DNA from: Muricea muricata
Lineage: Eukaryota; Cnidaria; Anthozoa; Malacalcyonacea; Plexauridae
Assembly (NCBI GenBank): GCA_963855995.1
Contig: OY979718.1
Coordinates: forward strand, 45,672,059 to 45,736,058
Reading direction: 5' to 3'
Length of the DNA stretch: 64,000 bases
Shown: one piece after another, positions 1 to 26,523 of the stretch
How the letters are laid out: each line of letters opens with the position of its first letter
Position numbering within the stretch: position 1 is the first letter of the stretch
Translations under genes and position numbers: made by a program
Notes under the pieces: generated by a model
Databases searched by the model: none
Seen by the model: only the letters and a program-made list of their open reading frames with translations
Told to the model about the DNA's origin: nothing

Positions 1-135
1 GCAATATCACAAATAACAAAAATGGGTAAGGTCAAAACTTGAGCATATAGTAGGTTTCTGGTGCTACGAATTTTAAAAGCCTATATTTTTGTGAGTAATA
101 AAACATTTGAAAAATAAATGTGTGTTGAAATCAGC

Positions 136-156
136 CTTCTCTTATACTCGGAGAAG
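136..156. other. Small hairpin cttctc / gagaag in the core, left copy
   Basis: A 6-bp perfect stem around the loop ttatactcg. The same hairpin with an identical loop is in the other core copy at 1760-1780, although the surrounding sequence has diverged. It may be chance conservation of a short stretch. Confidence 0.4.
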
Positions 157-427
157 ACCTTGTAAATTCTGATCAAACATACTTTTCCAAATATAATGAC
201 CTAGCTATAGGCGTCCAATATATATATCATTGAACAAAGCAGATCACTATTTAAATCTAATTTCGAAGAACAACATTATTGCTGGAGCACTACAGAGACG
301 ATAAGTATTAAATAAATGGAAATGTGTTTCGCAGATTGCATAAATGACCACGCAAATTATATTTTGATGTTTATGATAAAACTTACACAGCACGTTAATA
401 ACAGCAGCCTATATATAGATGCATGTG

Positions 428-609
428 CGCATGGCAATAGTGCCTACCTGGTCGTAATTCAACCACAATCAGTGCAACAGCAAAGCATGACGTATATAAA
501 TACAAATCGGTCGTACTATAGTATCACCGATTTGTATTTATATACGTCATGCTTTGCTGTTGCACTAATTGTGGTTGAATTACGACCAGGTAGGCACTAT
601 TGCCATGCG
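428..609. repeat. 182-bp near-perfect palindrome (one per unit)
   Basis: Left arm 428-510 pairs with right arm 527-609 base for base, 83 positions with no gap and one mismatch (470 with 567). The central 16 bases (511-526) also fold, with mismatches only at 512/525 and 513/524, so the axis is between 518 and 519 and there is practically no loop. The other 19 units carry it at the same place, 427 bases from the unit start. On either strand a transcript would form a stem of more than 80 bp. No transposase, target-site duplication or terminal motif is visible, so a fold-back element is possible but unproven. The 98-codon plus-strand open frame at 316-612 runs through both arms and is best read as a by-product. 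Confidence 0.95.
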
Positions 610-1430
610 TGATCATTTGCTTTTCTTCTTTTAAAATATCTGCCCGTACTTAGGGGAAACAGGCAGATCTCTGGAAACAAGAAAGGCTGAACACATCAGA
701 AACGTTAAGGAACATGATAATGGTTCAAGCATCGAAAAACGTGCAACGCGAAAATCATTGACACAGGGAATTTCCGTAGTCGCCTAACTCTAGAAAGTCT
801 AGAATCATGGCATACAGCTGCCAAACACAGCAATGCTGATAACAACTCAAAACCGCTTCCTCGACAATGTACAATCTTAATAAAGAAAACATAGTATCAC
901 CTTATCGTATTTCACAGTGCACATGTATACACGTCATATCTAGCTTCATTTCACACTTTCACAGTTTACTGCAATTATTATAAATATACCCGTTGAAGGC
1001 TACAGACTGGTGGCCGAAAGCTCGTAAACAAATAAATATATTTTAGTCAGAGAACGTCTCACCCTTTTCATTTATGTCTAATTGACACATCTACGATTTT
1101 TAGTGGTTTATATTGTTTAACCATTTCTTAAAGCTCATTCAGTTAAAAACGGGTAAAATAGGGCGAGTGTAATAGCCAACGCGGTTTGGTGGTAAGGCAA
1201 AGTGGCGGTAAATAAACAACGCAGCTGAACGATAATTCCCTTGCTCTGAATTCTTTTCATGTTTTAGAATTAATTATCGGCTAGAGAAAAGCCCGCTTAA
1301 ACAATTTAAGTGGCAAGCGCGTGATAGCAAACATATATAGTCTAGTGGCCAATGCAAAATGTCTCAAGTCAACGAGTTTTTGGTCAAACCTAATTGCCCT
1401 TGTCACAAACCCCATAGGTTTTTGTCTGGG
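521..1430. repeat. Insert X of the unit (no gene seen)
   Basis: Unique to the first half-unit. It starts with the right arm of the palindrome (to 609), then AT-rich DNA with no open frame worth calling. Visible structure: a hairpin at 640-666, a short cttaaa/tttaag inverted repeat near 1297-1311, a second occurrence of aattattataaatatac at about 975-991, and a hairpin at 1409-1432 at the right border. I recognise no coding, RNA-gene or transposon sequence in 670-1400. Confidence 0.8.
640..666. other. Hairpin ctgcccgt / acaggcag in insert X
   Basis: An 8-bp stem (640-647 with 659-666) around an 11-base loop, interrupted by one C-A mismatch (645 with 661). In U15, U17 and U18 the mismatched base is T, which makes all eight pairs perfect. 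On the minus strand the common form would be a G-U pair. Confidence 0.55.
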
Positions 1431-1432
1431 GT
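1409..1432. other. Hairpin acccca / tggggt at the border of insert X
   Basis: A 6-bp stem around a 12-base loop, ending where homology with the other core copy begins (about 1431). In U9 (27936) and U16 (51127) a C to G change breaks the stem with no compensating change, which argues against a strongly required structure. Confidence 0.4.
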
Positions 1433-2139
1433 AAGAATTATTATAAATATACACGCTAGATTAAATCAAAGTTATTCGAAGCCATTCGCGAGCTTTTGTT
1501 CGCATTTCATCGAATAATATTTGCTCATACTCTGTCGAGGAAGATCTTGAAGTTGCTTTTGAGTGTAATTACATTTATATGCACAAATTTATTTCTAAAT
1601 AAATCCAATTGAGTCTTTTGCAATATCACAATAACAAAAATGAGTAAGATTACAACTTGAGCATACAGTAGGTTTCTGGTGCTACGAATTTTAAATTATT
1701 TAAAATCCCATATTTTTGTAAGTAGAACATTTGAAAGATAAATGTGTGTTGAAATCAGCCTTCTCTTATACTCGGAGAAGACCATGTAAATTCTGATCAA
1801 ACATACATTTCCAAATTTAATGACCCAGCTATATGACGTTCAATATATATCATTGAACTAAACAGATCACTATTTAAATCTAATGTCGAAGAACAATTTT
1901 ATTGCTGAGGCACTACAGACACGATAAGTATTAAATAAATGGAAATGTTTTTCGCTGATTGCATAAATGACCACGCAAATTATATTTTGATATGATAAAA
2001 CTTATACAGCACGTTAATAACAGCAGCCTATATATAGATGCATGTGCGCATGGCAATAGTGTCTACCCGGTCGTAATTCAACCACAATCACTGCAACAGC
2101 AGAGCATGAGGTATATATATACAAATCGGTGATACTATA
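1431..2139. repeat. Internal core repeat, copy C' (joins half-units 1 and 2)
   Basis: A segment of about 709 bp that aligns with 3126-3839 (end of U1 and start of U2) across its whole length, with scattered substitutions and small indels. It begins at aagaattattata and ends at actata. It is flanked by insert X on the left and insert Y on the right, which do not resemble each other. The core is therefore the older repeated element, and the 3.3-kb unit is two core copies with different inserts. Confidence 0.85.
1687..1707. other. Class A insertion site (9-bp indel in half-unit 2)
   Basis: Class A reads ttttaaattatttaaaa here, an 8-bp-arm palindrome with a 1-base centre. Class B reads ttttaaaa. 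The first half-unit of every unit also reads ttttaaaa at the equivalent place (70-77). Using that paralogue as outgroup, the 9 bp were gained in class A. The site is in U1-U4, U7, U11 and U15. Confidence 0.85.
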
Positions 2140-2173
2140 CGTTGATGGTCTGATTCGAAGATACAGGGTTTTA

Positions 2174-2184
2174 GCACTTACGGT
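2174..2184 (-). other. 5' splice-site-like sequence next to the exon-like fragment
   Basis: Minus-strand ACC followed by GTAAGTGC matches the eukaryotic donor consensus well from +1 to +6 (intron side 2181 downward). In U5 the change T to C gives GTGAGT, also a good donor. In U14 the only nearby change is just on the exon side. No convincing acceptor with a pyrimidine tract is visible to the right of the fragment, so the functional reading is weak. Confidence 0.3.
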
Positions 2185-2197
2185 CTGGGGGCCGCTT

Positions 2198-2449
2198 CTA
2201 CCCTCCCCTATATTTCGAACCAGAGGTGGTGGAGTTTATGATACAGACGGTTGAGGCAGTCAATTCGATGTCGTTGTCGAAAGGCAACCGCATTTGGTGG
2301 GCTGTCGAGGCCAATTGTGCGAAGCCACCCGTGCGCGCCATCCGTGTGCAAACTTTTATTACAATACCCCGGTCCTTTTTACCATCGTTATACATTTCCA
2401 AGGCTAATCCTTCGAAGGTAGCAGAAATCCTGACACCTTTTGGAACCTT
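2198..2449 (-). pseudogene. Possible captured host-gene fragment (exon-like, 83 codons)
   Basis: On the minus strand a frame is open for 83 codons between a TAA (2450-2452) and a TAG (2198-2200). Its first in-frame ATG is at about codon 19. The protein begins KVPKGVRISATFEGLALEM and later contains DNDIELTASTVCI. I do not recognise the family and see no signal peptide, membrane segment or repeat. Seen: the stretch is clearly richer in G+C than its surroundings, many codons end in C or G, and GTAAGT lies at 2181-2176, 17 bases past the stop. Inferred: an exon or exon piece carried into the satellite. The opposite strand is also open (2226-2453, GTG start), but its codon usage looks less gene-like. 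The frame is open in all 19 copies, with Leu to Ser in U5 and Ile to Met in U15. Since whole units are near-identical, that is not evidence of selection. Confidence 0.35.
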
Positions 2450-2756
2450 TTAATTTAAATTGATTACGCTGGCGTACAATCTCTTATGACGCTTTTCAAT
2501 AGCCCTAATGTAAGTGGTAGAGCGTAATTCTTTTCAATTATTTATTTGGGGTTTTTTCGCCAAAAAAGATGGCTCCCACCGTTAAGAAAAACTATAGCAT
2601 TTTGAGCACGGTTTTCTGTTCAATTTTTTTCGATGGTTTTTTAGAACTTTTATTTTCTCCATTTACCGAAAATTTTGCCAGTGCGGTTAACAAGGAAATA
2701 AAAATTTTTCTTTATCAGACTGTATGATAAAAAGAAGTAATTGTCAAATTGTTACG

Positions 2757-2776
2757 AATTTTTTTCTAAAAAAATT
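2757..2776. other. AT hairpin in insert Y
   Basis: aattttttt and aaaaaaatt face each other with a 2-base spacer. A T-run hairpin of this kind could slip during replication or act as a pol III stop on the minus strand only if a T run follows there. No pol III transcript is established, so no function is claimed. Confidence 0.5.
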
Positions 2777-2848
2777 TGCAAAATAGACGAAAAGATACTT
2801 TGGAAAGGGTTATTAATTCTTACACAAGACGAAAACTATTTAATGCAT

Positions 2849-2920
2849 GGCAAGGGCAGGAATTGATCCTACCCACTTTTGTAGGGTAATTTGTATTTGA
2901 CCACTGCATTACGTTGGTTA
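2849..2920 (-). other. tRNA-like segment 1 (degenerate, SINE-like)
   Basis: Read on the minus strand, 2911-2901 is TAATGCAGTGG, 10 of 11 with the pol III A-box consensus TRGYNNARNNG. 2869-2859 is GGATCAATTCC, 10 of 11 with the B-box consensus GGTTCRANNCC. They are 31 bases apart, as in a tRNA. The B box sits in a T-arm-like hairpin: GTAGG and CCTGC around a 7-base loop. The acceptor stem pairs at only about 4 of 7 positions and there is no clear anticodon arm, so this is not a working tRNA. It is more likely a tRNA-derived relic. It recurs in all 19 complete units, 651 bases to the right of the left edge of the exon-like frame (653 in U10). Confidence 0.4.
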
Positions 2921-3019
2921 TGAGGCTTCGGCAAGTTGGTTTAAGTTGTCTATACGTTCTTCTAGCCTATGCTTAATTCTTGAAACTGACGAAATCCAGA
3001 ACGATTTTTATCAAAGGTA

Positions 3020-3094
3020 GGTATTGCTCTCGGACTCAGTGATTGATTCTGAAGGGATGCACATTGTCTTTACCACTGGACTATGTTAGTTACC
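3020..3094 (-). other. tRNA-like segment 2 (degenerate, related to segment 1)
   Basis: A 75-base stretch on the minus strand with TAGTCCAGTGG at 3083-3073, a full match to the A-box consensus. GAGTCCGAGAGC at 3037-3026 resembles a B box with one extra base, at the right distance. The ends GGTA and TACC can pair. Its 5' third aligns with segment 1: TAAC, AAC, TA and CAGTGGT are shared in order, about 24 of 30 positions. The two are probably copies of one tRNA-derived sequence in tandem. The 3' part is too degraded to assign a tRNA identity. Confidence 0.35.
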
Positions 3095-3118
3095 ACTTTC
3101 TATGTTAGTTACCACTTT
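3081..3118. repeat. 19-bp tandem duplication
   Basis: ctatgttagttaccacttt occurs twice, at 3081-3099 and 3100-3118, with no difference. It includes the 5' end of tRNA-like segment 2, so the duplication copies the start of that segment. It is present in the other complete units as well, so it predates the array's amplification. Confidence 0.9.
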
Positions 3119-3125
3119 GACTGGG

Positions 3126-3839
3126 TTAAGAATTATTATAGATATACACGCTAGATTAAATCAAAGTTATTCGAAGCCATTCGCGAGCTTTTGTTCGCAT
3201 TTCATCGAATAATATTTAATCATACTCTGTCGAGGAAGACCTTGAAGTTGCTTTTGAGTGTAATTACATTTTTAAATTATGTACAAATTTATTTCTAAAT
3301 AAATCCAATTGAGTCTTTTGCAATATCACAAATAACAAAAATGGGTAAGGTCAAAACTTGAGCATATAGTAGGTTTCTGGTGCTACGAATTTTAAAAGCC
3401 TATATTTTTGTGAGTAATAAAACATTTGAAAAATAAATGTGTGTTGAAATCAGCCTTCTCTTATACTCGGAGAAGACCTTGTAAATTCTGATCAAACATA
3501 CTTTTCCAAATATAATGACCTAGCTATAGGCGTCCAATATATATATCATTGAACAAAGCAGATCACTATTTAAATCTAATTTCGAAGAACAACATTATTG
3601 CTGGAGCACTACAGAGACGATAAGTATTAAATAAATGGAAATGTGTTTCGCAGATTGCATAAATGACCACGCAAATTATATTTTGATGTTTATGATAAAA
3701 CTTACACAGCACGTTAATAACAGCAGCCTATATATAGATGCATGTGCGCATGGCAATAGTGCCTACCTGGTCGTAATTCAACCACAATCAGTGCAACAGC
3801 AAAGCATGACGTATATAAATACAAATCGGTCGTACTATA
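3126..3839. repeat. Internal core repeat, copy C (joins units U1 and U2)
   Basis: The counterpart of 1431-2139. Differences include atagatatac versus ataaatatac near the left end, aagcctat versus aatcccat in the middle, and several changes in the last 100 bases. Its right end (3747-3839) is also the left arm of the U2 palindrome; in copy C' the equivalent stretch has no inverted partner. Confidence 0.85.
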
Positions 3840-6638
3840 GTATCACCGATTTATATTTATATACGTCATGCTTTGCTGTTGCACTAATTGTGGTTGAATT
3901 ACGACCAGGTAGGCACTATTGCCATGCGTGATCATTTGCTTTTCTTCTTTTAAAATATCTGCCCGTACTTAGGGGAAACAGGCAGATCTCTGGAAACAAG
4001 AAAGGCTGAACACATCAGAAACGTTAAGGAACATGATAATGGTTCAAGCATCGAAAAACGTGCAACGCGAAAATCATTGACACAGGGAATTTCCGTAGTC
4101 GCCTAACTCTAGAAAGTCTAGAATCATGGCATACAGCTGCCAAACACAGCAATGCTGATAACAACTCAAAACCGCTTCCTCGACAATGTACAATCTTAAT
4201 AAAGAAAACATAGTATCACCTTATCGTATTTCACAGTGCACATGTATACACGTCATATCTAGCTTCATTTCACACTTTCACAGTTTACTGCAATTATTAT
4301 AAATATACCCGTTGAAGGCTACAGACTGGTGGCCGAAAGCTCGTAAACAAATAAATATATTTTAGTCAGAGAACGTCTCACCCTTTTCATTTATGTCTAA
4401 TTGACACATCTACGATTTTTAGTGGTTTATATTGTTTAACCATTTCTTAAAGCTCATTCAGTTAAAAACGGGTAAAATAGGGCGAGTGTAATAGCCAACG
4501 CGGTTTGGTGGTAAGGCAAAGTGGCGGTAAATAAACAACGCAGCTGAACGATAATTCCCTTGCTCTGAATTCTTTTCATGTTTTAGAATTAATTATCGGC
4601 TAGAGAAAAGCCCGCTTAAACAATTTAAGTGGCAAGCGCGTGATAGCAAACATATATAGTCTAGTGGCCAATGCAAAATGTCTCAAGTCAACGAGTTTTT
4701 GGTCAAACCTAATTGCCCTTGTCACAAACCCCATAGGTTTTTGTCTGGGGTAAGAATTATTATAAATATACACGCTAGATTAAATCAAAGTTATTCGAAG
4801 CCATTCGCGAGCTTTTGTTCGCATTTCATCGAATAATATTTGCTCATACTCTGTCGAGGAAGATCTTGAAGTTGCTTTTGAGTGTAATTACATTTATATG
4901 CACAAATTTATTTCTAAATAAATCCAATTGAGTCTTTTGCAATATCACAATAACAAAAATGAGTAAGATTACAACTTGAGCATACAGTAGGTTTCTGGTG
5001 CTACGAATTTTAAATTATTTAAAATCCCATATTTTTGTAAGTAGAACATTTGAAAGATAAATGTGTGTTGAAATCAGCCTTCTCTTATACTCGGAGAAGA
5101 CCATGTAAATTCTGATCAAACATACATTTCCAAATTTAATGACCCAGCTATATGACGTTCAATATATATCATTGAACTAAACAGATCACTATTTAAATCT
5201 AATGTCGAAGAACAATTTTATTGCTGAGGCACTACAGACACGATAAGTATTAAATAAATGGAAATGTTTTTCGCTGATTGCATAAATGACCACGCAAATT
5301 ATATTTTGATATGATAAAACTTATACAGCACGTTAATAACAGCAGCCTATATATAGATGCATGTGCGCATGGCAATAGTGTCTACCCGGTCGTAATTCAA
5401 CCACAATCACTGCAACAGCAGAGCATGAGGTATATATATACAAATCGGTGATACTATACGTTGATGGTCTGATTCGAAGATACAGGGTTTTAGCACTTAC
5501 GGTCTGGGGGCCGCTTCTACCCTCCCCTATATTTCGAACCAGAGGTGGTGGAGTTTATGATACAGACGGTTGAGGCAGTCAATTCGATGTCGTTGTCGAA
5601 AGGCAACCGCATTTGGTGGGCTGTCGAGGCCAATTGTGCGAAGCCACCCGTGCGCGCCATCCGTGTGCAAACTTTTATTACAATACCCCGGTCCTTTTTA
5701 CCATCGTTATACATTTCCAAGGCTAATCCTTCGAAGGTAGCAGAAATCCTGACACCTTTTGGAACCTTTTAATTTAAATTGATTACGCTGGCGTACAATC
5801 TCTTATGACGCTTTTCAATAGCCCTAATGTAAGTGGTAGAGCGTAATTCTTTTCAATTATTTATTTGGGGTTTTTTCGCCAAAAAAGATGGCTCCCACCG
5901 TTAAGAAAAACTATAGCATTTTGAGCACGGTTTTCTGTTCAATTTTTTTCGATGGTTTTTTAGAACTTTTATTTTCTCCATTTACCGAAAATTTTGCCAG
6001 TGCGGTTAACAAGGAAATAAAAATTTTTCTTTATCAGACTGTATGATAAAAAGAAGTAATTGTCAAATTGTTACGAATTTTTTTCTAAAAAAATTTGCAA
6101 AATAGACGAAAAGATACTTTGGAAAGGGTTATTAATTCTTACACAAGACGAAAACTATTTAATGCATGGCAAGGGCAGGAATTGATCCTACCCACTTTTG
6201 TAGGGTAATTTGTATTTGACCACTGCATTACGTTGGTTATGAGGCTTCGGCAAGTTGGTTTAAGTTGTCTATACGTTCTTCTAGCCTATGCTTAATTCTT
6301 GAAACTGACGAAATCCAGAACGATTTTTATCAAAGGTAGGTATTGCTCTCGGACTCAGTGATTGATTCTGAAGGGATGCACATTGTCTTTACCACTGGAC
6401 TATGTTAGTTACCACTTTCTATGTTAGTTACCACTTTGACTGGGTTAAGAATTATTATAGATATACACGCTAGATTAAATCAAAGTTATTCGAAGCCATT
6501 CGCGAGCTTTTGTTCGCATTTCATCGAATAATATTTAATCATACTCTGTCGAGGAAGACCTTGAAGTTGCTTTTGAGTGTAATTACATTTTTAAATTATG
6601 TACAAATTTATTTCTAAATAAATCCAATTGAGTCTTTT
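3320..6638. repeat. Unit U2, class A, 3319 bp
   Basis: Matches U1 almost throughout. The one change noticed is G to A at 3853 in the right arm of the palindrome (3747-3928). It adds a C-A mismatch to a plus-strand hairpin but would be a G-U pair in a minus-strand transcript. Exon-like frame 5517-5768. Confidence 0.97.
3747..3928. repeat. U2 palindrome with an extra mismatch
   Basis: Same as the U1 palindrome except G to A at 3853 in the right arm, with no matching change in the left arm. The change has not been copied across the arms. Confidence 0.93.
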
Positions 6639-9600
6639 GCAATATCACAAATAACAAAAATGGGTAAGGTCAAAACTTGAGCATATAGTAGGTTTCTGGT
6701 GCTACGAATTTTAAAAGCCTATATTTTTGTGAGTAATAAAACATTTGAAAAATAAATGTGTGTTGAAATCAGCCTTCTCTTATACTCGGAGAAGACCTTG
6801 TAAATTCTGATCAAACATACTTTTCCAAATATAATGACCTAGCTATAGGCGTCCAATATATATATCATTGAACAAAGCAGATCACTATTTAAATCTAATT
6901 TCGAAGAACAACATTATTGCTGGAGCACTACAGAGACGATAAGTATTAAATAAATGGAAATGTGTTTCGCAGATTGCATAAATGACCACGCAAATTATAT
7001 TTTGATGTTTATGATAAAACTTACACAGCACGTTAATAACAGCAGCCTATATATAGATGCATGTGCGCATGGCAATAGTGCCTACCTGGTCGTAATTCAA
7101 CCACAATCAGTGCAACAGCAAAGCATGACGTATATAAATACAAATCGGTCGTACTATAGTATCACCGATTTGTATTTATATACGTCATGCTTTGCTGTTG
7201 CACTAATTGTGGTTGAATTACGACCAGGTAGGCACTATTGCCATGCGTGATCATTTGCTTTTCTTCTTTTAAAATATCTGCCCGTACTTAGGGGAAACAG
7301 GCAGATCTCTGGAAACAAGAAAGGCTGAACACATCAGAAACGTTAAGGAACATGATAATGGTTCAAGCATCGAAAAACGTGCAACGCGAAAATCATTGAC
7401 ACAGGGAATTTCCGTAGTCGCCTAACTCTAGAAAGTCTAGAATCATGGCATACAGCTGCCAAACACAGCAATGCTGATAACAACTCAAAACCGCTTCCTC
7501 GACAATGTACAATCTTAATAAAGAAAACATAGTATCACCTTATCGTATTTCACAGTGCACATGTATACACGTCATATCTAGCTTCATTTCACACTTTCAC
7601 AGTTTACTGCAATTATTATAAATATACCCGTTGAAGGCTACAGACTGGTGGCCGAAAGCTCGTAAACAAATAAATATATTTTAGTCAGAGAACGTCTCAC
7701 CCTTTTCATTTATGTCTAATTGACACATCTACGATTTTTAGTGGTTTATATTGTTTAACCATTTCTTAAAGCTCATTCAGTTAAAAACGGGTAAAATAGG
7801 GCGAGTGTAATAGCCAACGCGGTTTGGTGGTAAGGCAAAGTGGCGGTAAATAAACAACGCAGCTGAACGATAATTCCCTTGCTCTGAATTCTTTTCATGT
7901 TTTAGAATTAATTATCGGCTAGAGAAAAGCCCGCTTAAACAATTTAAGTGGCAAGCGCGTGATAGCAAACATATATAGTCTAGTGGCCAATGCAAAATGT
8001 CTCAAGTCAACGAGTTTTTGGTCAAACCTAATTGCCCTTGTCACAAACCCCATAGGTTTTTGTCTGGGGTAAGAATTATTATAAATATACACGCTAGATT
8101 AAATCAAAGTTATTCGAAGCCATTCGCGAGCTTTTGTTCGCATTTCATCGAATAATATTTGCTCATACTCTGTCGAGGAAGATCTTGAAGTTGCTTTTGA
8201 GTGTAATTACATTTATATGCACAAATTTATTTCTAAATAAATCCAATTGAGTCTTTTGCAATATCACAATAACAAAAATGAGTAAGATTACAACTTGAGC
8301 ATACAGTAGGTTTCTGGTGCTACGAATTTTAAATTATTTAAAATCCCATATTTTTGTAAGTAGAACATTTGAAAGATAAATGTGTGTTGAAATCAGCCTT
8401 CTCTTATACTCGGAGAAGACCATGTAAATTCTGATCAAACATACATTTCCAAATTTAATGACCCAGCTATATGACGTTCAATATATATCATTGAACTAAA
8501 CAGATCACTATTTAAATCTAATGTCGAAGAACAATTTTATTGCTGAGGCACTACAGACACGATAAGTATTAAATAAATGGAAATGTTTTTCGCTGATTGC
8601 ATAAATGACCACGCAAATTATATTTTGATATGATAAAACTTATACAGCACGTTAATAACAGCAGCCTATATATAGATGCATGTGCGCATGGCAATAGTGT
8701 CTACCCGGTCGTAATTCAACCACAATCACTGCAACAGCAGAGCATGAGGTATATATATACAAATCGGTGATACTATACGTTGATGGTCTGATTCGAAGAT
8801 ACAGGGTTTTAGCACTTACGGTCTGGGGGCCGCTTCTACCCTCCCCTATATTTCGAACCAGAGGTGGTGGAGTTTATGATACAGACGGTTGAGGCAGTCA
8901 ATTCGATGTCGTTGTCGAAAGGCAACCGCATTTGGTGGGCTGTCGAGGCCAATTGTGCGAAGCCACCCGTGCGCGCCATCCGTGTGCAAACTTTTATTAC
9001 AATACCCCGGTCCTTTTTACCATCGTTATACATTTCCAAGGCTAATCCTTCGAAGGTAGCAGAAATCCTGACACCTTTTGGAACCTTTTAATTTAAATTG
9101 ATTACGCTGGCGTACAATCTCTTATGACGCTTTTCAATAGCCCTAATGTAAGTGGTAGAGCGTAATTCTTTTCAATTATTTATTTGGGGTTTTTTCGCCA
9201 AAAAAGATGGCTCCCACCGTTAAGAAAAACTATAGCATTTTGAGCACGGTTTTCTGTTCAATTTTTTTCGATGGTTTTTTAGAACTTTTATTTTCTCCAT
9301 TTACCGAAAATTTTGCCAGTGCGGTTAACAAGGAAATAAAAATTTTTCTTTATCAGACTGTATGATAAAAAGAAGTAATTGTCAAATTGTTACGAATTTT
9401 TTTCTAAAAAAATTTGCAAAATAGACGAAAAGATACTTTGGAAAGGGTTATTAATTCTTACACAAGACGAAAACTATTTAATGCATGGCAAGGGCAGGAA
9501 TTGATCCTACCCACTTTTGTAGGGTAATTTGTATTTGACCACTGCATTACGTTGGTTATGAGGCTTCGGCAAGTTGGTTTAAGTTGTCTATACGTTCTTC

Positions 9601-9957
9601 TAGCCTATGCTTAATTCTTGAAACTGACGAAATCCAGAACGATTTTTATCAAAGGTAGGTATTGCTCTCGGACTCAGTGATTGATTCTGAAGGGATGCAC
9701 ATTGTCTTTACCACTGGACTATGTTAGTTACCACTTTCTATGTTAGTTACCACTTTGACTGGGTTAAGAATTATTATAGATATACACGCTAGATTAAATC
9801 AAAGTTATTCGAAGCCATTCGCGAGCTTTTGTTCGCATTTCATCGAATAATATTTAATCATACTCTGTCGAGGAAGACCTTGAAGTTGCTTTTGAGTGTA
9901 ATTACATTTTTAAATTATGTACAAATTTATTTCTAAATAAATCCAATTGAGTCTTTT
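6639..9957. repeat. Unit U3, class A, 3319 bp
   Basis: No difference from U1 noticed by eye. Palindrome 7066-7247, exon-like frame 8836-9087. U1-U4 form the most uniform block of the window. Confidence 0.97.
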
Positions 9958-12900
9958 GCAATATCACAAATAACAAAAATGGGTAAGGTCAAAACTTGAG
10001 CATATAGTAGGTTTCTGGTGCTACGAATTTTAAAAGCCTATATTTTTGTGAGTAATAAAACATTTGAAAAATAAATGTGTGTTGAAATCAGCCTTCTCTT
10101 ATACTCGGAGAAGACCTTGTAAATTCTGATCAAACATACTTTTCCAAATATAATGACCTAGCTATAGGCGTCCAATATATATATCATTGAACAAAGCAGA
10201 TCACTATTTAAATCTAATTTCGAAGAACAACATTATTGCTGGAGCACTACAGAGACGATAAGTATTAAATAAATGGAAATGTGTTTCGCAGATTGCATAA
10301 ATGACCACGCAAATTATATTTTGATGTTTATGATAAAACTTACACAGCACGTTAATAACAGCAGCCTATATATAGATGCATGTGCGCATGGCAATAGTGC
10401 CTACCTGGTCGTAATTCAACCACAATCAGTGCAACAGCAAAGCATGACGTATATAAATACAAATCGGTCGTACTATAGTATCACCGATTTGTATTTATAT
10501 ACGTCATGCTTTGCTGTTGCACTAATTGTGGTTGAATTACGACCAGGTAGGCACTATTGCCATGCGTGATCATTTGCTTTTCTTCTTTTAAAATATCTGC
10601 CCGTACTTAGGGGAAACAGGCAGATCTCTGGAAACAAGAAAGGCTGAACACATCAGAAACGTTAAGGAACATGATAATGGTTCAAGCATCGAAAAACGTG
10701 CAACGCGAAAATCATTGACACAGGGAATTTCCGTAGTCGCCTAACTCTAGAAAGTCTAGAATCATGGCATACAGCTGCCAAACACAGCAATGCTGATAAC
10801 AACTCAAAACCGCTTCCTCGACAATGTACAATCTTAATAAAGAAAACATAGTATCACCTTATCGTATTTCACAGTGCACATGTATACACGTCATATCTAG
10901 CTTCATTTCACACTTTCACAGTTTACTGCAATTATTATAAATATACCCGTTGAAGGCTACAGACTGGTGGCCGAAAGCTCGTAAACAAATAAATATATTT
11001 TAGTCAGAGAACGTCTCACCCTTTTCATTTATGTCTAATTGACACATCTACGATTTTTAGTGGTTTATATTGTTTAACCATTTCTTAAAGCTCATTCAGT
11101 TAAAAACGGGTAAAATAGGGCGAGTGTAATAGCCAACGCGGTTTGGTGGTAAGGCAAAGTGGCGGTAAATAAACAACGCAGCTGAACGATAATTCCCTTG
11201 CTCTGAATTCTTTTCATGTTTTAGAATTAATTATCGGCTAGAGAAAAGCCCGCTTAAACAATTTAAGTGGCAAGCGCGTGATAGCAAACATATATAGTCT
11301 AGTGGCCAATGCAAAATGTCTCAAGTCAACGAGTTTTTGGTCAAACCTAATTGCCCTTGTCACAAACCCCATAGGTTTTTGTCTGGGGTAAGAATTATTA
11401 TAAATATACACGCTAGATTAAATCAAAGTTATTCGAAGCCATTCGCGAGCTTTTGTTCGCATTTCATCGAATAATATTTGCTCATACTCTGTCGAGGAAG
11501 ATCTTGAAGTTGCTTTTGAGTGTAATTACATTTATATGCACAAATTTATTTCTAAATAAATCCAATTGAGTCTTTTGCAATATCACAATAACAAAAATGA
11601 GTAAGATTACAACTTGAGCATACAGTAGGTTTCTGGTGCTACGAATTTTAAATTATTTAAAATCCCATATTTTTGTAAGTAGAACATTTGAAAGATAAAT
11701 GTGTGTTGAAATCAGCCTTCTCTTATACTCGGAGAAGACCATGTAAATTCTGATCAAACATACATTTCCAAATTTAATGACCCAGCTATATGACGTTCAA
11801 TATATATCATTGAACTAAACAGATCACTATTTAAATCTAATGTCGAAGAACAATTTTATTGCTGAGGCACTACAGACACGATAAGTATTAAATAAATGGA
11901 AATGTTTTTCGCTGATTGCATAAATGACCACGCAAATTATATTTTGATATGATAAAACTTATACAGCACGTTAATAACAGCAGCCTATATATAGATGCAT
12001 GTGCGCATGGCAATAGTGTCTACCCGGTCGTAATTCAACCACAATCACTGCAACAGCAGAGCATGAGGTATATATATACAAATCGGTGATACTATACGTT
12101 GATGGTCTGATTCGAAGATACAGGGTTTTAGCACTTACGGTCTGGGGGCCGCTTCTACCCTCCCCTATATTTCGAACCAGAGGTGGTGGAGTTTATGATA
12201 CAGACGGTTGAGGCAGTCAATTCGATGTCGTTGTCGAAAGGCAACCGCATTTGGTGGGCTGTCGAGGCCAATTGTGCGAAGCCACCCGTGCGCGCCATCC
12301 GTGTGCAAACTTTTATTACAATACCCCGGTCCTTTTTACCATCGTTATACATTTCCAAGGCTAATCCTTCGAAGGTAGCAGAAATCCTGACACCTTTTGG
12401 AACCTTTTAATTTAAATTGATTACGCTGGCGTACAATCTCTTATGACGCTTTTCAATAGCCCTAATGTAAGTGGTAGAGCGTAATTCTTTTCAATTATTT
12501 ATTTGGGGTTTTTTCGCCAAAAAAGATGGCTCCCACCGTTAAGAAAAACTATAGCATTTTGAGCACGGTTTTCTGTTCAATTTTTTTCGATGGTTTTTTA
12601 GAACTTTTATTTTCTCCATTTACCGAAAATTTTGCCAGTGCGGTTAACAAGGAAATAAAAATTTTTCTTTATCAGACTGTATGATAAAAAGAAGTAATTG
12701 TCAAATTGTTACGAATTTTTTTCTAAAAAAATTTGCAAAATAGACGAAAAGATACTTTGGAAAGGGTTATTAATTCTTACACAAGACGAAAACTATTTAA
12801 TGCATGGCAAGGGCAGGAATTGATCCTACCCACTTTTGTAGGGTAATTTGTATTTGACCACTGCATTACGTTGGTTATGAGGCTTCGGCAAGTTGGTTTA

Positions 12901-13276
12901 AGTTGTCTATACGTTCTTCTAGCCTATGCTTAATTCTTGAAACTGACGAAATCCAGAACGATTTTTATCAAAGGTAGGTATTGCTCTCGGACTCAGTGAT
13001 TGATTCTGAAGGGATGCACATTGTCTTTACCACTGGACTATGTTAGTTACCACTTTCTATGTTAGTTACCACTTTGACTGGGTTAAGAATTATTATAGAT
13101 ATACACGCTAGATTAAATCAAAGTTATTCGAAGCCATTCGCGAGCTTTTGTTCGCATTTCATCGAATAATATTTAATCATACTCTGTCGAGGAAGACCTT
13201 GAAGTTGCTTTTGAGTGTAATTACATTTTTAAATTATGTACAAATTTATTTCTAAATAAATCCAATTGAGTCTTTT
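9958..13276. repeat. Unit U4, class A, 3319 bp
   Basis: No difference from U1 noticed by eye. Palindrome 10385-10566, exon-like frame 12155-12406. This is the last of the leading class A block; the next unit switches to class B. Confidence 0.97.
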
Positions 13277-16200
13277 GCAATATCACAAATAACAAAAATG
13301 GGTAAGGTCAAAACTTGAGCATATAGTAGGTTTCTGGTGCTACGAATTTTAAAAGCCTATATTTTTGTGAGTAATAAAACATTTGAAAAATAAATGTGTG
13401 TTGAAATCAGCCTTCTCTTATACTCGGAGAAGACCTTGTAAATTCTGATCAAACATACTTTTCCAAATATAATGACCTAGCTATAGGCGTCCAATATATA
13501 TATCATTGAACAAAGCAGATCACTATTTAAATCTAATTTCGAAGAACAACATTATTGCTGGAGCACTACAGAGACGATAAGTATTAAATAAATGGAAATG
13601 TGTTTCGCAGATTGCATAAATGACCACGCAAATTATATTTTGATGTTTATGATAAAACTTACACAGCACGTTAATAACAGCAGCCTATATATAGATGCAT
13701 GTGCGCATGGCAATAGTGCCTACCTGGTCGTAATTCAACCACAATCAGTGCAACAGCAAAGCATGACGTATATAAATACAAATCGGTCGTACTATAGTAT
13801 CACCGATTTGTATTTATATACGTCATGCTTTGCTGTTGCACTAATTGTGGTTGAATTACGACCAGGTAGGCACTATTGCCATGCGTGATCATTTGCTTTT
13901 CTTCTTTTAAAATATCTGCCCGTACTTAGGGGAAACAGGCAGATCTCTGGAAACAAGAAAGGCTGAACACATCAGAAACGTTAAGGAACATGATAATGGT
14001 TCAAGCATCGAAAAACGTGCAACGCGAAAATCATTGACACAGGGAATTTCCGTAGTCGCCTAACTCTAGAAAGTCTAGAATCATGGCATACAGCTGCCAA
14101 ACACAGCAATGCTGATAACAACTCAAAACCGCTTCCTCGACAATGTACAATCTTAATAAAGAAAACATAGTATCACCTTATCGTATTTCACAGTGCACAT
14201 GTATACACGTCATATCTAGCTTCATTTCACACTTTCACAGTTTACTGCAATTATTATAAATATACCCGTTGAAGGCTACAGACTGGTGGCCGAAAGCTCG
14301 TAAACAAATAAATATATTTTAGTCAGAGAACGTCTCACCCTTTTCATTTATGTCTAATTGACACATCTACGATTTTTAGTGGTTTATATTGTTTAACCAT
14401 TTCTTAAAGCTCATTCAGTTAAAAACGGGTAAAATAGGGCGAGTGTAATAGCCAACGCGGTTTGGTGGTAAGGCAAAGTGGCGGTAAATAAACAACGCAG
14501 CTGAACGATAATTCCCTTGCTCTGAATTCTTTTCATGTTTTAGAATTAATTATAGGCTAGAGAAAAGCCCGCTTAAACAATTTAAGTGGCAAGCGCGTGA
14601 TAGCAAACATATACAGTCTAGTGGCCAATGCAAAATGTCTCAAGTCAACGAGTTTTTGGTCAAACCTAATTGCCCTTGTCACAAACCCCATAGGTTTTTG
14701 TCTGGGGTAAGAATTATTATAAATATACACGCTAGATTAAATCAAAGTTATTCGAAGCCATTCGCGAGCTTTTGTTCGCATTTCATCGAATAATATTTAC
14801 TCATACTCTGTCGAGAAAGATCTTGAAGTTGCTTTTGAGTGTAATTACATTTATATGCACAAATTTATTTCTAAATAAATCCAATTGAGTCTTTTGCAAT
14901 ATCACAATAACAAAAACGGGTAAGATCACAACTTGAGCATACAGTAGGTTTCTGGTGCTACGAATTTTAAAATCCCATATTTTTGTAAGTAGAACATTTG
15001 AAAGATAAATGTGTGTTGAAATCAGCCTTCTCTTATACTCGGAGAAGACCATGTAAATTCTGATCAAACATACATTTCCAAATTTAATGACCCAGCTATA
15101 TGACGTTCAATATATATCATTGAACAAAACAGATCACTATTTAAATCTAATGTCGAAGAACAATTTTATTGCTGAGGCACTACAGACACGATAAGTATTA
15201 AATAAATGGAAATGTTTTTCGCTGATTGCATAAATGACCACGCAAATTATATTTTGATATGATAAAACTTATACAGCACGTTAATAACAGCAGCCTATAT
15301 ATAGATGCATGTGCGCATGGCAATAGTGTCTACCCGGTCGTAATTCAACCACAATCACTGCAACAGCAGAGCATGAGGTATATATATACAAATCGGTGAT
15401 ACTATACGTTGATGGTCTGATTCGAAGATACAGGGTTTTAGCACTCACGGTCTGGGGGCCGCTTCTACCCTCCCCTATATTTCGAACCAGAGGTGGTGGA
15501 GTTTATGATACAGACGGTTGAGGCAGTCGATTCGATGTCGTTGTCGAAAGGCAACCGCATTTGGTGGGCTGTCGAGGCCAATTGTGCGAAGCCACCCGTG
15601 CGCGCCATCCGTGTGCAAACTTTTATTACAATACCCCGGTCCTTTTTACCATCGTTATACATTTCCAAGGCTAATCCTTCGAAGGTAGCAGAAATCCTGA
15701 CACCTTTTGGAACCTTTTAATTTAAATTGATTACGCTGGCGTACAATCTCTTATGACGCTTTTCAATAGCCCTAATGTAAGTGGTAGAGCGTAATTCTTT
15801 TCAATTATTTATTTGGGGTTTTTTCGCCAAAAAAGATGGCTCCCACCGTTAAGAAAAACTATAGCATTTTGAGCACGGTTTTCTGTTCAATTTTTTTCGA
15901 TGGTTTTTTAGAACTTTTATTTTCTCCATTTACCGAAAATTTTGCCAGTGCGGTTAACAAGGAAATAAAAATTGTTCTTTATCAGACTGTATGATAAAAA
16001 GAAGTAATTGTCAAATTGTTACGAATTTTTTTCTAAAAAAATTTGCAAAATAGACGAAAAGATACTTTGGAAAGGGTTATTAATTCTTACACAAGACGAA
16101 AACTATTTAATGCATGGCAAGGGCAGGAATTGATCCTACCCACTTTTGTAGGGTAATTTGTATTTGACCACTGCATTACGTTGGTTATGAGGCTTCGGCA

Positions 16201-16586
16201 AGTTGGTTTAAGTTGTCTATACGTTCTTCTAGCCTATGCTTAATTCTTGAAACTGACGAAATCCAGAACGATTTTTATCAAAGGTAGGTATTGCTCTCGG
16301 ACTCAGTGATTGATTCTGAAGGGATGCACATTGTCTTTACCACTGGACTATGTTAGTTACCACTTTCTATGTTAGTTACCACTTTGACTGGGTTAAGAAT
16401 TATTATAGATATACACGCTAGATTAAATCAAAGTTATTCGAAGCCATTCGCGAGCTTTTGTTCGCATTTCATCGAATAATATTTAATCATACTCTGTCGA
16501 GGAAGACCTTGAAGTTGCTTTTGAGTGTAATTACATTTTTAAATTATGTACAAATTTATTTCTAAATAAATCCAATTGAGTCTTTT
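13277..16586. repeat. Unit U5, class B, 3310 bp
   Basis: First class B unit: taggctag, tactcat, gagaaagatc and acgggtaagatc markers, and no 9-bp insertion. Private changes include A to G at 15530 (Leu to Ser in the minus-strand exon-like frame), cactcacgg near 15443 (donor-like site becomes GTGAGT), attgttc near 15971 and gaacaaaac near 15122. It shares atacagtcta near 14612 with U7 but not with U6. Palindrome 13704-13885, exon-like frame 15465-15716. Confidence 0.97.
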
Positions 16587-19500
16587 GCAATATCACAAAT
16601 AACAAAAATGGGTAAGGTCAAAACTTGAGCATATAGTAGGTTTCTGGTGCTACGAATTTTAAAAGCCTATATTTTTGTGAGTAATAAAACATTTGAAAAA
16701 TAAATGTGTGTTGAAATCAGCCTTCTCTTATACTCGGAGAAGACCTTGTAAATTCTGATCAAACATACTTTTCCAAATATAATGACCTAGCTATAGGCGT
16801 CCAATATATATATCATTGAACAAAGCAGATCACTATTTAAATCTAATTTCGAAGAACAACATTATTGCTGGAGCACTACAGAGACGATAAGTATTAAATA
16901 AATGGAAATGTGTTTCGCAGATTGCATAAATGACCACGCAAATTATATTTTGATGTTTATGATAAAACTTACACAGCACGTTAATAACAGCAGCCTATAT
17001 ATAGATGCATGTGCGCATGGCAATAGTGCCTACCTGGTCGTAATTCAACCACAATCAGTGCAACAGCAAAGCATGACGTATATAAATACAAATCGGTCGT
17101 ACTATAGTATCACCGATTTGTATTTATATACGTCATGCTTTGCTGTTGCACTAATTGTGGTTGAATTACGACCAGGTAGGCACTATTGCCATGCGTGATC
17201 ATTTGCTTTTCTTCTTTTAAAATATCTGCCCGTACTTAGGGGAAACAGGCAGATCTCTGGAAACAAGAAAGGCTGAACACATCAGAAACGTTAAGGAACA
17301 TGATAATGGTTCAAGCATCGAAAAACGTGCAACGCGAAAATCATTGACACAGGGAATTTCCGTAGTCGCCTAACTCTAGAAAGTCTAGAATCATGGCATA
17401 CAGCTGCCAAACACAGCAATGCTGATAACAACTCAAAACCGCTTCCTCGACAATGTACAATCTTAATAAAGAAAACATAGTATCACCTTATCGTATTTCA
17501 CAGTGCACATGTATACACGTCATATCTAGCTTCATTTCACACTTTCACAGTTTACTGCAATTATTATAAATATACCCGTTGAAGGCTACAGACTGGTGGC
17601 CGAAAGCTCGTAAACAAATAAATATATTTTAGTCAGAGAACGTCTCACCCTTTTCATTTATGTCTAATTGACACATCTACGATTTTTAGTGGTTTATATT
17701 GTTTAACCATTTCTTAAAGCTCATTCAGTTAAAAACGGGTAAAATAGGGCGAGTGTAATAGCCAACGCGGTCTGGTGGTAAGGCAAAGTGGCGGTAAATA
17801 AACAACGCAGCTGAACGATAATTCCCTTGCTCTGAATTCTTTTCATGTTTTAGAATTAATTATAGGCTAGAGAAAAGCCCGCTTAAACAATTTAAGTGGC
17901 AAGCGCGTGATAGCAAACATATATAGTCTAGTGGCCAATGCAAAATGTCTCAAGTCAACGAGTTTTTGGTCAAACCTAATTGCCCTTGTCACAAACCCCA
18001 TAGGTTTTTGTCTGGGGTAAGAATTATTATAAATATACACGCTAGATTAAATCAAAGTTATTCGAAGCCATTCGCGAGCTTTTGTTCGCATTTCATCGAA
18101 TAATATTTACTCATACTCTGTCGAGAAAGATCTTGAAGTTGCTTTTGAGTGTAATTACATTTATATGCACAAATTTATTTCTAAATAAATCCAATTGAGT
18201 CTTTTGCAATATCACAATAACAAAAACGGGTAAGATCACAACTTGAGCATACAGTAGGTTTCTGGTGCTACGAATTTTAAAATCCCATATTTTTGTAAGT
18301 AGAACATTTGAAAGATAAATGTGTGTTGAAATCAGCCTTCTCTTATACTCGGAGAAGACCATGTAAATTCTGATCAAACATACATTTCCAAATTTAATGA
18401 CCCAGCTATATGACGTTCAATATATATCATTGAACTAAACAGATCACTATTTAAATCTAATGTCGAAGAACAATTTTATTGCTGAGGCACTACAGACACG
18501 ATAAGTATTAAATAAATGGAAATGTTTTTCGCTGATTGCATAAATGACCACGCAAATTATATTTTGATATGATAAAACTTATACAGCACGTTAATAACAG
18601 CAGCCTATATATAGATGCATGTGCGCATGGCAATAGTGTCTACCCGGTCGTAATTCAACCACAATCACTGCAACAGCAGAGCATGAGGTATATATATACA
18701 AATCGGTGATACTATACGTTGATGGTCTGATTCGAAGATACAGGGTTTTAGCACTTACGGTCTGGGGGCCGCTTCTACCCTCCCCTATATTTCGAACCAG
18801 AGGTGGTGGAGTTTATGATACAGACGGTTGAGGCAGTCAATTCGATGTCGTTGTCGAAAGGCAACCGCATTTGGTGGGCTGTCGAGGCCAATTGTGCGAA
18901 GCCACCCGTGCGCGCCATCCGTGTGCAAACTTTTATTACAATACCCCGGTCCTTTTTACCATCGTTATACATTTCCAAGGCTAATCCTTCGAAGGTAGCA
19001 GAAATCCTGACACCTTTTGGAACCTTTTAGTTTAAATTGATTACGCTGGCGTACAATCTCTTATGACGCTTTTCAATAGCCCTAATGTAAGTGGTAGAGC
19101 GTAATTCTTTTCAATTATTTATTTGGGGTTTTTTCGCCAAAAAAGATGGCTCCCACCGTTAAGAAAAACTATAGCATTTTGAGCACGGTTTTCTGTTCAA
19201 TTTTTTTCGATGGTTTTTTAGAACTTTTATTTTCTCCATTTACCGAAAATTTTGCCAGTGCGGTTAACAAGGAAATAAAAATTTTTCTTTATCAGACTGT
19301 ATGATAAAAAGAAGTAATTGTCAAATTGTTACGAATTTTTTTCTAAAAAAATTTGCAAAATAGACGAAAAGATACTTTGGAAAGGGTTATTAATTCTTAC
19401 ACAAGACGAAAACTATTTAATGCATGGCAAGGGCAGGAATTGATCCTACCCACTTTTGTAGGGTAATTTGTATTTGACCACTGCATTACGTTGGTTATGA

Positions 19501-19896
19501 GGCTTCGGCAAGTTGGTTTAAGTTGTCTATACGTTCTTCTAGCCTATGCTTAATTCTTGAAACTGACGAAATCCAGAACGATTTTTATCAAAGGTAGGTA
19601 TTGCTCTCGGACTCAGTGATTGATTCTGAAGGGATGCACATTGTCTTTACCACTGGACTATGTTAGTTACCACTTTCTATGTTAGTTACCACTTTGACTG
19701 GGTTAAGAATTATTATAGATATACACGCTAGATTAAATCAAAGTTATTCGAAGCCATTCGCGAGCTTTTGTTCGCATTTCATCGAATAATATTTAATCAT
19801 ACTCTGTCGAGGAAGACCTTGAAGTTGCTTTTGAGTGTAATTACATTTTTAAATTATGTACAAATTTATTTCTAAATAAATCCAATTGAGTCTTTT
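16587..19896. repeat. Unit U6, class B, 3310 bp
   Basis: Class B markers throughout. It carries ggtctggtgg near 17769, where U1-U5 have ggtttggtgg, and ttttagttt near 19026. Palindrome 17014-17195, exon-like frame 18775-19026. Confidence 0.97.
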
Positions 19897-22800
19897 GCAA
19901 TATCACAAATAACAAAAATGGGTAAGGTCAAAACTTGAGCATATAGTAGGTTTCTGGTGCTACGAATTTTAAAAGCCTATATTTTTGTGAGTAATAAAAC
20001 ATTTGAAAAATAAATGTGTGTTGAAATCAGCCTTCTCTTATACTCGGAGAAGACCTTGTAAATTCTGATCAAACATACTTTTCCAAATATAATGACCTAG
20101 CTATAGGCGTCCAATATATATATCATTGAACAAAGCAGATCACTATTTAAATCTAATTTCGAAGAACAACATTATTGCTGGAGCACTACAGAGACGATAA
20201 GTATTAAATAAATGGAAATGTGTTTCGCAGATTGCATAAATGACCACGCAAATTATATTTTGATGTTTATGATAAAACTTACACAGCACGTTAATAACAG
20301 CAGCCTATATATAGATGCATGTGCGCATGGCAATAGTGCCTACCTGGTCGTAATTCAACCACAATCAGTGCAACAGCAAAGCATGACGTATATAAATACA
20401 AATCGGTCGTACTATAGTATCACCGATTTGTATTTATATACGTCATGCTTTGCTGTTGCACTAATTGTGGTTGAATTACGACCAGGTAGGCACTATTGCC
20501 ATGCGTGATCATTTGCTTTTCTTCTTTTAAAATATCTGCCCGTACTTAGGGGAAACAGGCAGATCTCTGGAAACAAGAAAGGCTGAACACATCAGAAACG
20601 TTAAGGAACATGATAATGGTTCAAGCATCGAAAAACGTGCAACGCGAAAATCATTGACACAGGGAATTTCCGTAGTCGCCTAACTCTAGAAAGTCTAGAA
20701 TCATGGCATACAGCTGCCAAACACAGCAATGCTGATAACAACTCAAAACCGCTTCCTCGACAATGTACAATCTTAATAAAGAAAACATAGTATCACCTTA
20801 TCGTATTTCACAGTGCACATGTATACACGTCATATCTAGCTTCATTTCACACTTTCACAGTTTACTGCAATTATTATAAATATACCCGTTGAAGGCTACA
20901 GACTGGTGGCCGAAAGCTCGTAAACAAATAAATATATTTTAGTCAGAGAACGTCTCACCCTTTTCAGTTATGTCTAATTGACACATCTACGATTTTTAGT
21001 GGTTTATATTGTTTAACCATTTCTTAAAGCTCATTCAGTTAAAAACGGGTAAAATAGGGCGAGTGTAATAGCCAACGCGGTCTGGTGGTAAGGCAAAGTG
21101 GCGGTAAATAAACAACGCAGCTGAACGATAATTCCCTTGCTCTGAATTCTTTTCATGTTTTAGAATTAATTATAGGCTAGAGAAAAGCCCGCTTAAACAA
21201 TTTAAGTGGCAAGCGCGTGATAGCAAACATATACAGTCTAGTGGCCAATGCAAAATGTCTCAAGTCAACGAGTTTTTGGTCAAACCTAATTGCCCTTGTC
21301 ACAAACCCCATAGGTTTTTGTCTGGGGTAAGAATTATTATAAATATACACGCTAGATTAAATCAAAGTTATTCGAAGCCATTCGCGAGCTTTTGTTCGCA
21401 TTTCATCGAATAATATTTACTCATACTCTGTCGAGAAAGATCTTGAAGTTGCTTTTGAGTGTAATTACATTTATATGCACAAATTTATTTCTAAATAAAT
21501 CCAATTGAGTCTTTTGCAATATCACAATAACAAAAATGAGTAAGATTACAACTTGAGCATACAGTAGGTTTCTGGTGCTACGAATTTTAAATTATTTAAA
21601 ATCCCATATTTTTGTAAGTAGAACATTTGAAAGATAAATGTGTGTTGAAATCAGCCTTCTCTTATACTCGGAGAAGACCATGTAAATTCTGATCAAACAT
21701 ACATTTCCAAATTTAATGACCCAGCTATATGACGTTCAATATATATCATTGAACTAAACAGATCACTATTTAAATCTAATGTCGAAGAACAATTTTATTG
21801 CTGAGGCACTACAGACACGATAAGTATTAAATAAATGGAAATGTTTTTCGCTGATTGCATAAATGACCACGCAAATTATATTTTGATATGATAAAACTTA
21901 TACAGCACGTTAATAACAGCAGCCTATATATAGATGCATGTGCGCATGGCAATAGTGTCTACCCGGTCGTAATTCAACCACAATCACTGCAACAGCAGAG
22001 CATGAGGTATATATATACAAATCGGTGATACTATACGTTGATGGTCTGATTCGAAGATACAGGGTTTTAGCACTTACGGTCTGGAGGCCGCTTCTACCCT
22101 CCCCTATATTTCGAACCAGAGGTGGTGGAGTTTATGATACAGACGGTTGAGGCAGTCAATTCGATGTCGTTGTCGAAAGGCAACCGCATTTGGTGGGCTG
22201 TCGAGGCCAATTGTGCGAAGCCACCCGTGCGCGCCATCCGTGTGCAAACTTTTATTACAATACCCCGGTCCTTTTTACCATCGTTATACATTTCCAAGGC
22301 TAATCCTTCGAAGGTAGCAGAAATCCTGACACCTTTTGGAACCTTTTAATTTAAATTGATTACGCTGGCGTACAATCTCTTATGACGCTTTTCAATAGCC
22401 CTAATGTAAGTGGTAGAGCGTAATTCTTTTCAATTATTTATTTGGGGTTTTTTCGCCAAAAAAGATGGCTCCCACCGTTAAGAAAAACTATAGCATTTTG
22501 AGCACGGTTTTCTGTTCAATTTTTTTCGATGGTTTTTTAGAACTTTTATTTTCTCCATTTACCGAAAATTTTGCCAGTGCGGTTAACAAGGAAATAAAAA
22601 TTTTTCTTTATCAGACTGTATGATAAAAAGAAGTAATTGTCAAATTGTTACGAATTTTTTTCTAAAAAAATTTGCAAAATAGACGAAAAGATACTTTGGA
22701 AAGGGTTATTAATTCTTACACAAGACGAAAACTATTTAATGCATGGCAAGGGCAGGAATTGATCCTACCCACTTTTGTAGGGTAATTTGTATTTGACCAC

Positions 22801-23215
22801 TGCATTACGTTGGTTATGAGGCTTCGGCAAGTTGGTTTAAGTTGTCTATACGTTCTTCTAGCCTATGCTTAATTCTTGAAACTGACGAAATCCAGAACGA
22901 TTTTTATCAAAGGTAGGTATTGCTCTCGGACTCAGTGATTGATTCTGAAGGGATGCACATTGTCTTTACCACTGGACTATGTTAGTTACCACTTTCTATG
23001 TTAGTTACCACTTTGACTGGGTTAAGAATTATTATAGATATACACGCTAGATTAAATCAAAGTTATTCGAAGCCATTCGCGAGCTTTTGTTCGCATTTCA
23101 TCGAATAATATTTAATCATACTCTGTCGAGGAAGACCTTGAAGTTGCTTTTGAGTGTAATTACATTTTTAAATTATGTACAAATTTATTTCTAAATAAAT
23201 CCAATTGAGTCTTTT
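19897..23215. repeat. Unit U7, B-to-A mosaic, 3319 bp
   Basis: The left part carries class B markers (taggctag near 21173, tactcat near 21418, gagaaag near 21433). The right part switches to class A (atgagtaagatt near 21535 and the 9-bp insertion). The exchange point lies between about 21440 and 21534. Private changes include cagtta near 20966 and ctggaggcc near 22081. Palindrome 20324-20505, exon-like frame 22094-22345. Confidence 0.97.
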
Positions 23216-26200: not shown

Positions 26201-26523
26201 CAGAACGATTTTTATCAAAGGTAGGTATTGCTCTCGGACTCAGTGATTGATTCTGAAGGGATGCACATTGTCTTTACCACTGGACTATGTTAGTTACCAC
26301 TTTCTATGTTAGTTACCACTTTGACTGGGTTAAGAATTATTATAGATATACACGCTAGATTAAATCAAAGTTATTCGAAGCCATTCGCGAGCTTTTGTTC
26401 GCATTTCATCGAATAATATTTAATCATACTCTGTCGAGGAAGACCTTGAAGTTGCTTTTGAGTGTAATTACATTTTTAAATTATGTACAAATTTATTTCT
26501 AAATAAATCCAATTGAGTCTTTT
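23216..26523. repeat. Unit U8, class B, 3308 bp, damaged palindrome
   Basis: Two 1-bp losses against the 3310-bp class B length. One falls in a rewritten stretch of the palindrome's left arm around 23680-23688, the other in gcattattata near 24186. It also mixes markers: tgctcat (A-like, near 24735) is followed within 20 bases by gagaaag (B-like). Palindrome 23643-23823, exon-like frame 25402-25653. Confidence 0.97.
23643..23823. repeat. U8 palindrome with a damaged left arm
   Basis: The left arm reads accaatccaatgcaac around 23677-23692, where other units read accacaatcagtgcaac. This is a net 1-bp loss plus a local scramble. The right arm is unchanged, so the outer stem is interrupted about 37 bases in from its end. 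The shift also breaks the 98-codon frame, which is otherwise open in every unit, with no sign of other consequence. Confidence 0.93.

Follow-up and report, generated by a model that had tools for sequence, protein, structure and literature searches.

The 64,000-bp stretch of Muricea muricata DNA analysed here (the window) is made up of a satellite in which the same core sequence ends plainly in one monomer and folds back on itself at that very point in the other, so that the axis of the resulting palindrome would record the point of a strand switch or break. The reading that we prefer, with a probability of about 0.5, is that the palindrome is a fold-back junction, formed by a template switch at a DNA end and a jump into the sequence named linker A, and then amplified, reshuffled and spread. 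The earlier note on this DNA had placed the axis of the palindrome at the end of the homology between two half-units; that observation is correct, precise and not a matter of chance. Its interpretation, that a broken end folded back or switched template, fits the position of the axis and the likeness of the two arms and is reasonable on the sequence, the direction of change (an arm gained, not lost) being unproven.

The units of the array run head to tail, are nearly identical to one another (99.2-100% identity of the 19 whole units in the window to unit 1) and alternate two related monomers, as in a satellite with dimeric higher-order units (Table 1). The monomers have the core in common and differ in their linkers: in the first, core 1 is followed by an inverted copy of its last 91 bp and then by linker A, whereas in the second, core 2 passes directly into linker B. 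The two cores form one block of homology (1421-2139 against 3116-3839), in which the 709 aligned columns contain 43 substitutions; there are also 7 gap events. Alignment of linker A with linker B gave no likeness beyond that of shuffled sequence on the plus strand (score 24; maximum of 31 in 40 shuffles) and a score of 29, equal to the highest of 40 shuffles, on the minus strand; between the core and linker B, a short match gave a plus-strand score of 29, which exceeds that of all 30 shuffles (maximum 26). The half-unit homology described earlier does end at 520 and 2139, and begins about 200 bp before the half-unit starts that had been chosen, a misplacement that arose because the unit start was set inside the core.

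Table 1. Features of the satellite unit in the window, and arrays elsewhere in the genome that were seen at both ends (L, R and H2 denote the three arms)
Feature	Position	Strand	Remarks
Satellite array	1..64000	+	Whole window; 19 complete units (3308-3319 bp each) plus a partial twentieth
Left arm (L)	428..518	+	Last 91 bp of core 1; in 20/20 units
Palindrome tip	509..528		Asymmetric at 512-513/524-525
Right arm (R)	519..609	-	Inverted copy of the core end
Linker A	610..1420	+	After the right arm
Core 2, including its arm	1421..2139	+	About 720 bp common to both monomers
Single arm (H2)	2047..2137	+	End of core 2, running into linker B
Linker B	2140..3115	+	After the single arm
Core 1, including its arm and 2 bp beyond the axis	3116..3839	+	First complete copy in the window
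Array at C2:17.3 Mb	L012 3516-6833		One unit, 3318 bp; opening point inside the core; ends share 5 bp
Array at C2:29.4 Mb	L022 2558 to L023 5831		Four units; opening point in linker B; 3 bp missing
Array at C3:34.7 Mb	L024 2511 to L025 3672		Length of about ten units; opening point in linker A; ends share 5 bp
Array at C3:37.6 Mb	L026 1101 to L027 2752		Length of about seven monomers; opening point in the core; ends share 7 bp

Core 2 occurs in two forms along the window (1641-1698 and equivalent positions): seven of the 19 units (1-4, 7, 11 and 15) carry a 9-bp insertion together with three linked changes, and the remainder agree with core 1 at these positions, a pattern suggestive of conversion between the cores. 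A TATA-like stretch, TTATAAATATACMCG, lies in linker A (973-992) and again at the start of the core (1436-1455). A search for tRNA genes found none, and searches of IMG/VR, GTDB contigs, phages and plasmids for relatives gave no usable match, only one phage at E = 3 and two pattern matches in GTDB contigs that were not supported by tblastn.

The palindrome (428-609) consists of 2 x 91 bp with no spacer and has its axis at 518/519. Aligned with its own reverse complement, the 182-bp stretch is identical in 96.7% of columns, the six mismatched columns being three mismatched pairs of 91. A chance palindrome is ruled out by its score, 79, since 200 dinucleotide shuffles of the unit reach no more than 10. 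All 20 units of the window possess it. The homology of the cores extends 2 bp beyond the axis because TATA is present there in both copies; the axis and the half-unit boundary therefore coincide to within 2 bp, and half-unit 2 has one arm, as the earlier note had stated. The inverted copy directly adjoins its source, and its axis lies where the paralogue homology ends, as is expected of a template-switch inverted duplication. On the other side, no microhomology was identified at the end of the right arm, a point against the fold-back reading. The left arm of unit 8 (unit start 23216) contains three substitutions and a 1-bp deletion at about 23681-23687 that are absent from its right arm.

Copies were sought throughout the genome (453 Mb in 74 contigs, the window being C3:45.67-45.74 Mb). 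The palindrome search yielded 829 candidate places, of which 40 were scored; with the window, these fall by our grouping into eight places (C3 at 45.7, 40.5, 37.6 and 34.7 Mb; C2 at 29.4, 17.3, 10.7 and 6.1 Mb), from which 13 stretches of sequence and nine more were sampled. Among the forward arms lying whole in the pieces from the window and the first 21 loci (L003-L023), 105 in all, 45 lead into an inverted arm and 60 into linker B, with no other continuation; the inverted arm is always accompanied by linker A (45) and the single arm always by linker B (60). The type of arm tracks the linker that follows it without exception, which indicates that arm and linker were joined as one junction. 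A further search with window positions 2000-2240 (40 scored of 1208 candidates) retrieved only near-identical copies of the window's array and no older copy. An assembly or read fold-back artefact is rejected on two grounds: the same three sites of difference between L and R recur in nearly all copies (arms identical within their own type in 43 of 45 cases for L and 42 of 45 for R), and linker A then follows the palindrome in all eight places.

Comparison of the three arms over 91 bp finds eight differences between L and H2, seven between R and H2, and three between L and R. By pattern, L and R agree against H2 at six sites, L and H2 against R at one, and R and H2 against L at two adjacent sites 6-7 bp from the axis. 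Two remarks of the earlier note, that the half-units differ at about six positions of 83 within the arm and that the right arm follows half-unit 2 near the axis ('ggtgatac'), are right in substance. L and R are the nearest to each other of the three arms, which is all that an unrooted comparison conveys. The fold-back reading is favoured because the axis and the boundary agree within 2 bp and because L and R agree against H2 at six sites as opposed to one, and the available text of PMC8794818 describes the creation of hairpin stems by template switching. Counting against it, six sites against one gives only p = 0.06 (one-sided sign test), and exchange between the arms could imitate young arms. 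The L-R distance is not significantly lower than the core-wide distance (P = 0.20; P = 0.09 when the two adjacent sites are counted as a single change). The similarity of the arms thus weakly favours gain of an arm, and the proposed timing of that gain, after the half-units diverged, is plausible, with these figures lending it slight weight.

Exchange between the arms is visible at the tip of the palindrome. At C2:6.1 Mb, three of seven palindromes have the tip in the opposite orientation, the left arm there carrying GGTGATAC, whereas none of the 48 palindromes elsewhere does. In the one of the three inverted copies that was inspected over its full length, the outer difference between L and R (470/567) is not swapped, so the inverted stretch of that copy reaches less than 48 bp to either side of the axis. 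The inversion shows arm-to-arm copying and explains why the right arm follows half-unit 2 near the axis; the flipped tips mean that the hairpin still served as a template after it had formed. According to the accessible portion of PMC8604942, template switching between arms causes both homogenization of the arms and inversion of the spacer. Later homogenization, which the earlier note had offered as an alternative to a young inverted copy, gains weight from this exchange. Arm similarity is not a simple clock, and old arms could look young.

The main rival to fold-back is loss of an arm, a tentative reading that we consider possible and rather less than probable. It supposes that both monomers were at first palindromic, that the second lost its right arm by a break at the hairpin tip, where linker B was joined, and that the arms have since been homogenized. 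A break at the centre of a palindrome would likewise put the boundary of homology on the axis, the exchange that this reading calls for can be seen at the tip, and the arms differ little between arrays. However, closeness of L and R along the whole arm would need exchange over most of its length, and the sequence beyond the axis of H2 bears no trace of a right arm, its similarity to R (score 12) falling below that reached by shuffles (up to 20).

Monomers with one arm, which the earlier note had suggested seeking in related genomes, are plentiful in the same genome (60 of the 105 arms), although most of those in tandem do not bear on the direction of change. In the array at C2:10.7 Mb, monomers designated by their linkers occur in orders such as A-B-B and, once, A-A. 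Judged by the 60 sites that separate core 1 from core 2, 17 of 20 BB cores, which have linker B on either side, are at first like core 1 and then like core 2, and the sole AA core (n = 1), with linker A on either side, is the reverse mosaic with the same breakpoint; the two kinds resemble reciprocal products of unequal crossing-over in which one core of the dimer pairs with the other. Because 17 of the 20 BB cores appear to be crossover products, BB monomers are no outgroup and do not root the tree of arms, and for these 17 their candidacy as the ancestral one-arm form is rejected. The remaining three are like core 1 throughout with an arm of the H2 type, as could result from a crossover immediately ahead of the arm.

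Other irregularities were observed in these arrays. One AB core at C2:29.4 Mb (L022, 4406) is an irregular mixture of core 1 and core 2 states and is perhaps of an older lineage. In the same locus (L022 3584-5038), one A monomer and the core that follows it are far more diverged than their neighbours, with 46 substitutions in 811 bp of linker A and 37 in 626 bp of core, whereas neither of the flanking arms has changed. In the array at C2:10.7 Mb, the A monomers contain a 615-bp MITE-like insert at unit position 1439/1440 (L014 5132-5746; also L013 and L015-L021), with ends CAGTTGAACC and GGTTCAACTG, beside TA.

Four arrays were seen at both ends, and all four fit whole numbers of monomers with permuted ends and four different opening points (Table 1); those at C3:34.7 and C3:37.6 Mb were counted by length only, their interiors being sampled in part, and the other four places, including the window's own, showed one end or none in the sample and were left out of the count. 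Permuted whole-number arrays are the expected trace of circles integrating at short homologies, and circles are therefore the probable vehicle. Spread of satellites by extrachromosomal circles was reportedly described in Drosophila by Sproul et al. The flanks of two arrays (L026 left of 1101; L030 left of 2259) end in the same ten bases, TACGCCTATG, beside a nearly identical core position, the arrays being oppositely oriented.

The arms vary less between arrays than the rest of the unit does. When ten units (some partial) from the seven other places were compared with one window unit, variation was seen at 3 of 273 arm sites, with tip inversion left out, and at 220 of 3046 sites in the rest of the unit (Fisher p = 7e-6), with p = 0.014 against core 1 alone and p = 0.002 when the most divergent unit was omitted (3 against 145), all of these values being too sharp because the arrays are related and recombine. 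Retention of the palindrome for a function, whether as a hairpin RNA or as a structure in the DNA that serves the circle or array, could account for this constancy and for the great predicted stability of the hairpin (positions 418-619: -104 kcal/mol as DNA, -159.9 kcal/mol as RNA, z = -26). We consider it unlikely: the contrast was weaker in a count that used a different reference unit and retained the tip sites (6/273 against 189/3046, p = 0.004), the single H2 arm is equally invariant without being palindromic, and homogenization among related arrays that recombine in their cores could produce the same constancy and may explain it better than constraint. Nor does the palindrome qualify as a microRNA precursor, the Rfam microRNA matches all being under their gathering scores and driven by the hairpin.

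Two reading-frame pieces in positions 635-894 of linker A resemble, in our judgement, the end of a Penelope-like GIY-YIG protein. Searches of the linker A fragment against Pfam, NCBIfam and PHROGs gave no significant match, and so no GIY-YIG or reverse transcriptase domain was recognized; searches of the pieces against PDB and IMG/VR returned nothing, and no hammerhead ribozyme was among the 15 Rfam matches up to E = 5 in window positions 1-7000. Penelope elements with palindromes at inverted junctions, attributed to self-priming, are reported in PMC3846280, and this suggests a retrotransposon route in which a Penelope-like element inserted at the axis, the target strand being primed by fold-back at the truncated 5' end and half-unit 2 representing the empty site. 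That route is improbable: the element is without profile or database support, the palindromes in the consulted part of PMC3846280 sit at the element's own repeats rather than at those of the target, and the sequence beyond the axis of H2 does not recur after linker A, which leaves half-unit 2 unsupported as an empty site. Least probable, and very unlikely in our estimation, is that the palindrome has a function within a mobile satellite borne on circles, its arms constant across arrays and its tip switching orientation; if so, it would be retained because the hairpin helps the circle to replicate or yields a hairpin RNA acting on both types of core.

Under the fold-back reading, synthesis or end repair in one copy of the core would have reached the present positions 518-520 (ACTATA) and met a DNA end or a stalled fork, then switched onto its own new strand or that of its sister and copied back 91 bases. 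From there, copying would have run on into unrelated DNA, the present linker A, before returning to the array close to where the next core begins. Amplification of the dimer so produced (core, inverted arm, A, core, B) would have followed, with reshuffling by crossovers from one of its cores to the other and transfer to further sites, probably in circular form; in some copies, the tip would later have been turned round by copying from arm to arm. Long palindromes are commonly regarded as unstable. Contrary to that expectation, a repeat with a 182-bp palindrome has been copied and moved here, and none of the A monomers examined has lost it.

The processes invoked are already known, and the value of this satellite is as an unusually clear example, to which the inversion of the tip and the permuted arrays are added. 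It resembles Penelope-like elements in that the palindrome stands beside sequence that looks Penelope-like. It differs from them in that the palindrome is of the core and not of an element's own repeat, as in the Penelope cases covered by the available text of PMC3846280, and in that the profiles are unsupportive. The template-switch hairpins and spacer inversions described in the available portions of PMC8794818 and PMC8604942 share with it an inverted copy beside its source and, in some copies, an inverted tip, and here too the arms are more alike than either is to the paralogue; however, the arms are of 91 bp, where the patterns mentioned in the accessible text of PMC8794818 are of up to 59 bp, and the copy lies at a junction to unrelated DNA and has been amplified in a satellite. 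The foldback junctions of breakage-replication/fusion, as the consulted part of PMC12807874 presents them, likewise have their axis at a DNA end and join the foldback to other sequence, but they concern disease genomes and cell models at a larger scale, whereas the event here is old and its DNA end is reconstructed. Satellites related to transposable elements or foldbacks, such as Tetris of Drosophila virilis (PMC4079207, in the part available), are similar in having inverted repeats inside DNA that became a tandem array; in contrast, no foldback transposon boundaries were identified here, and the palindrome is an internal junction. The spread of satellites by extrachromosomal circles, discussed in the accessible text of PMC10264360, is matched here by permuted whole-number arrays at several sites, with 5-7 bp shared at the array ends in three of four cases, although in this genome it is from the ends of arrays alone that circles are deduced.
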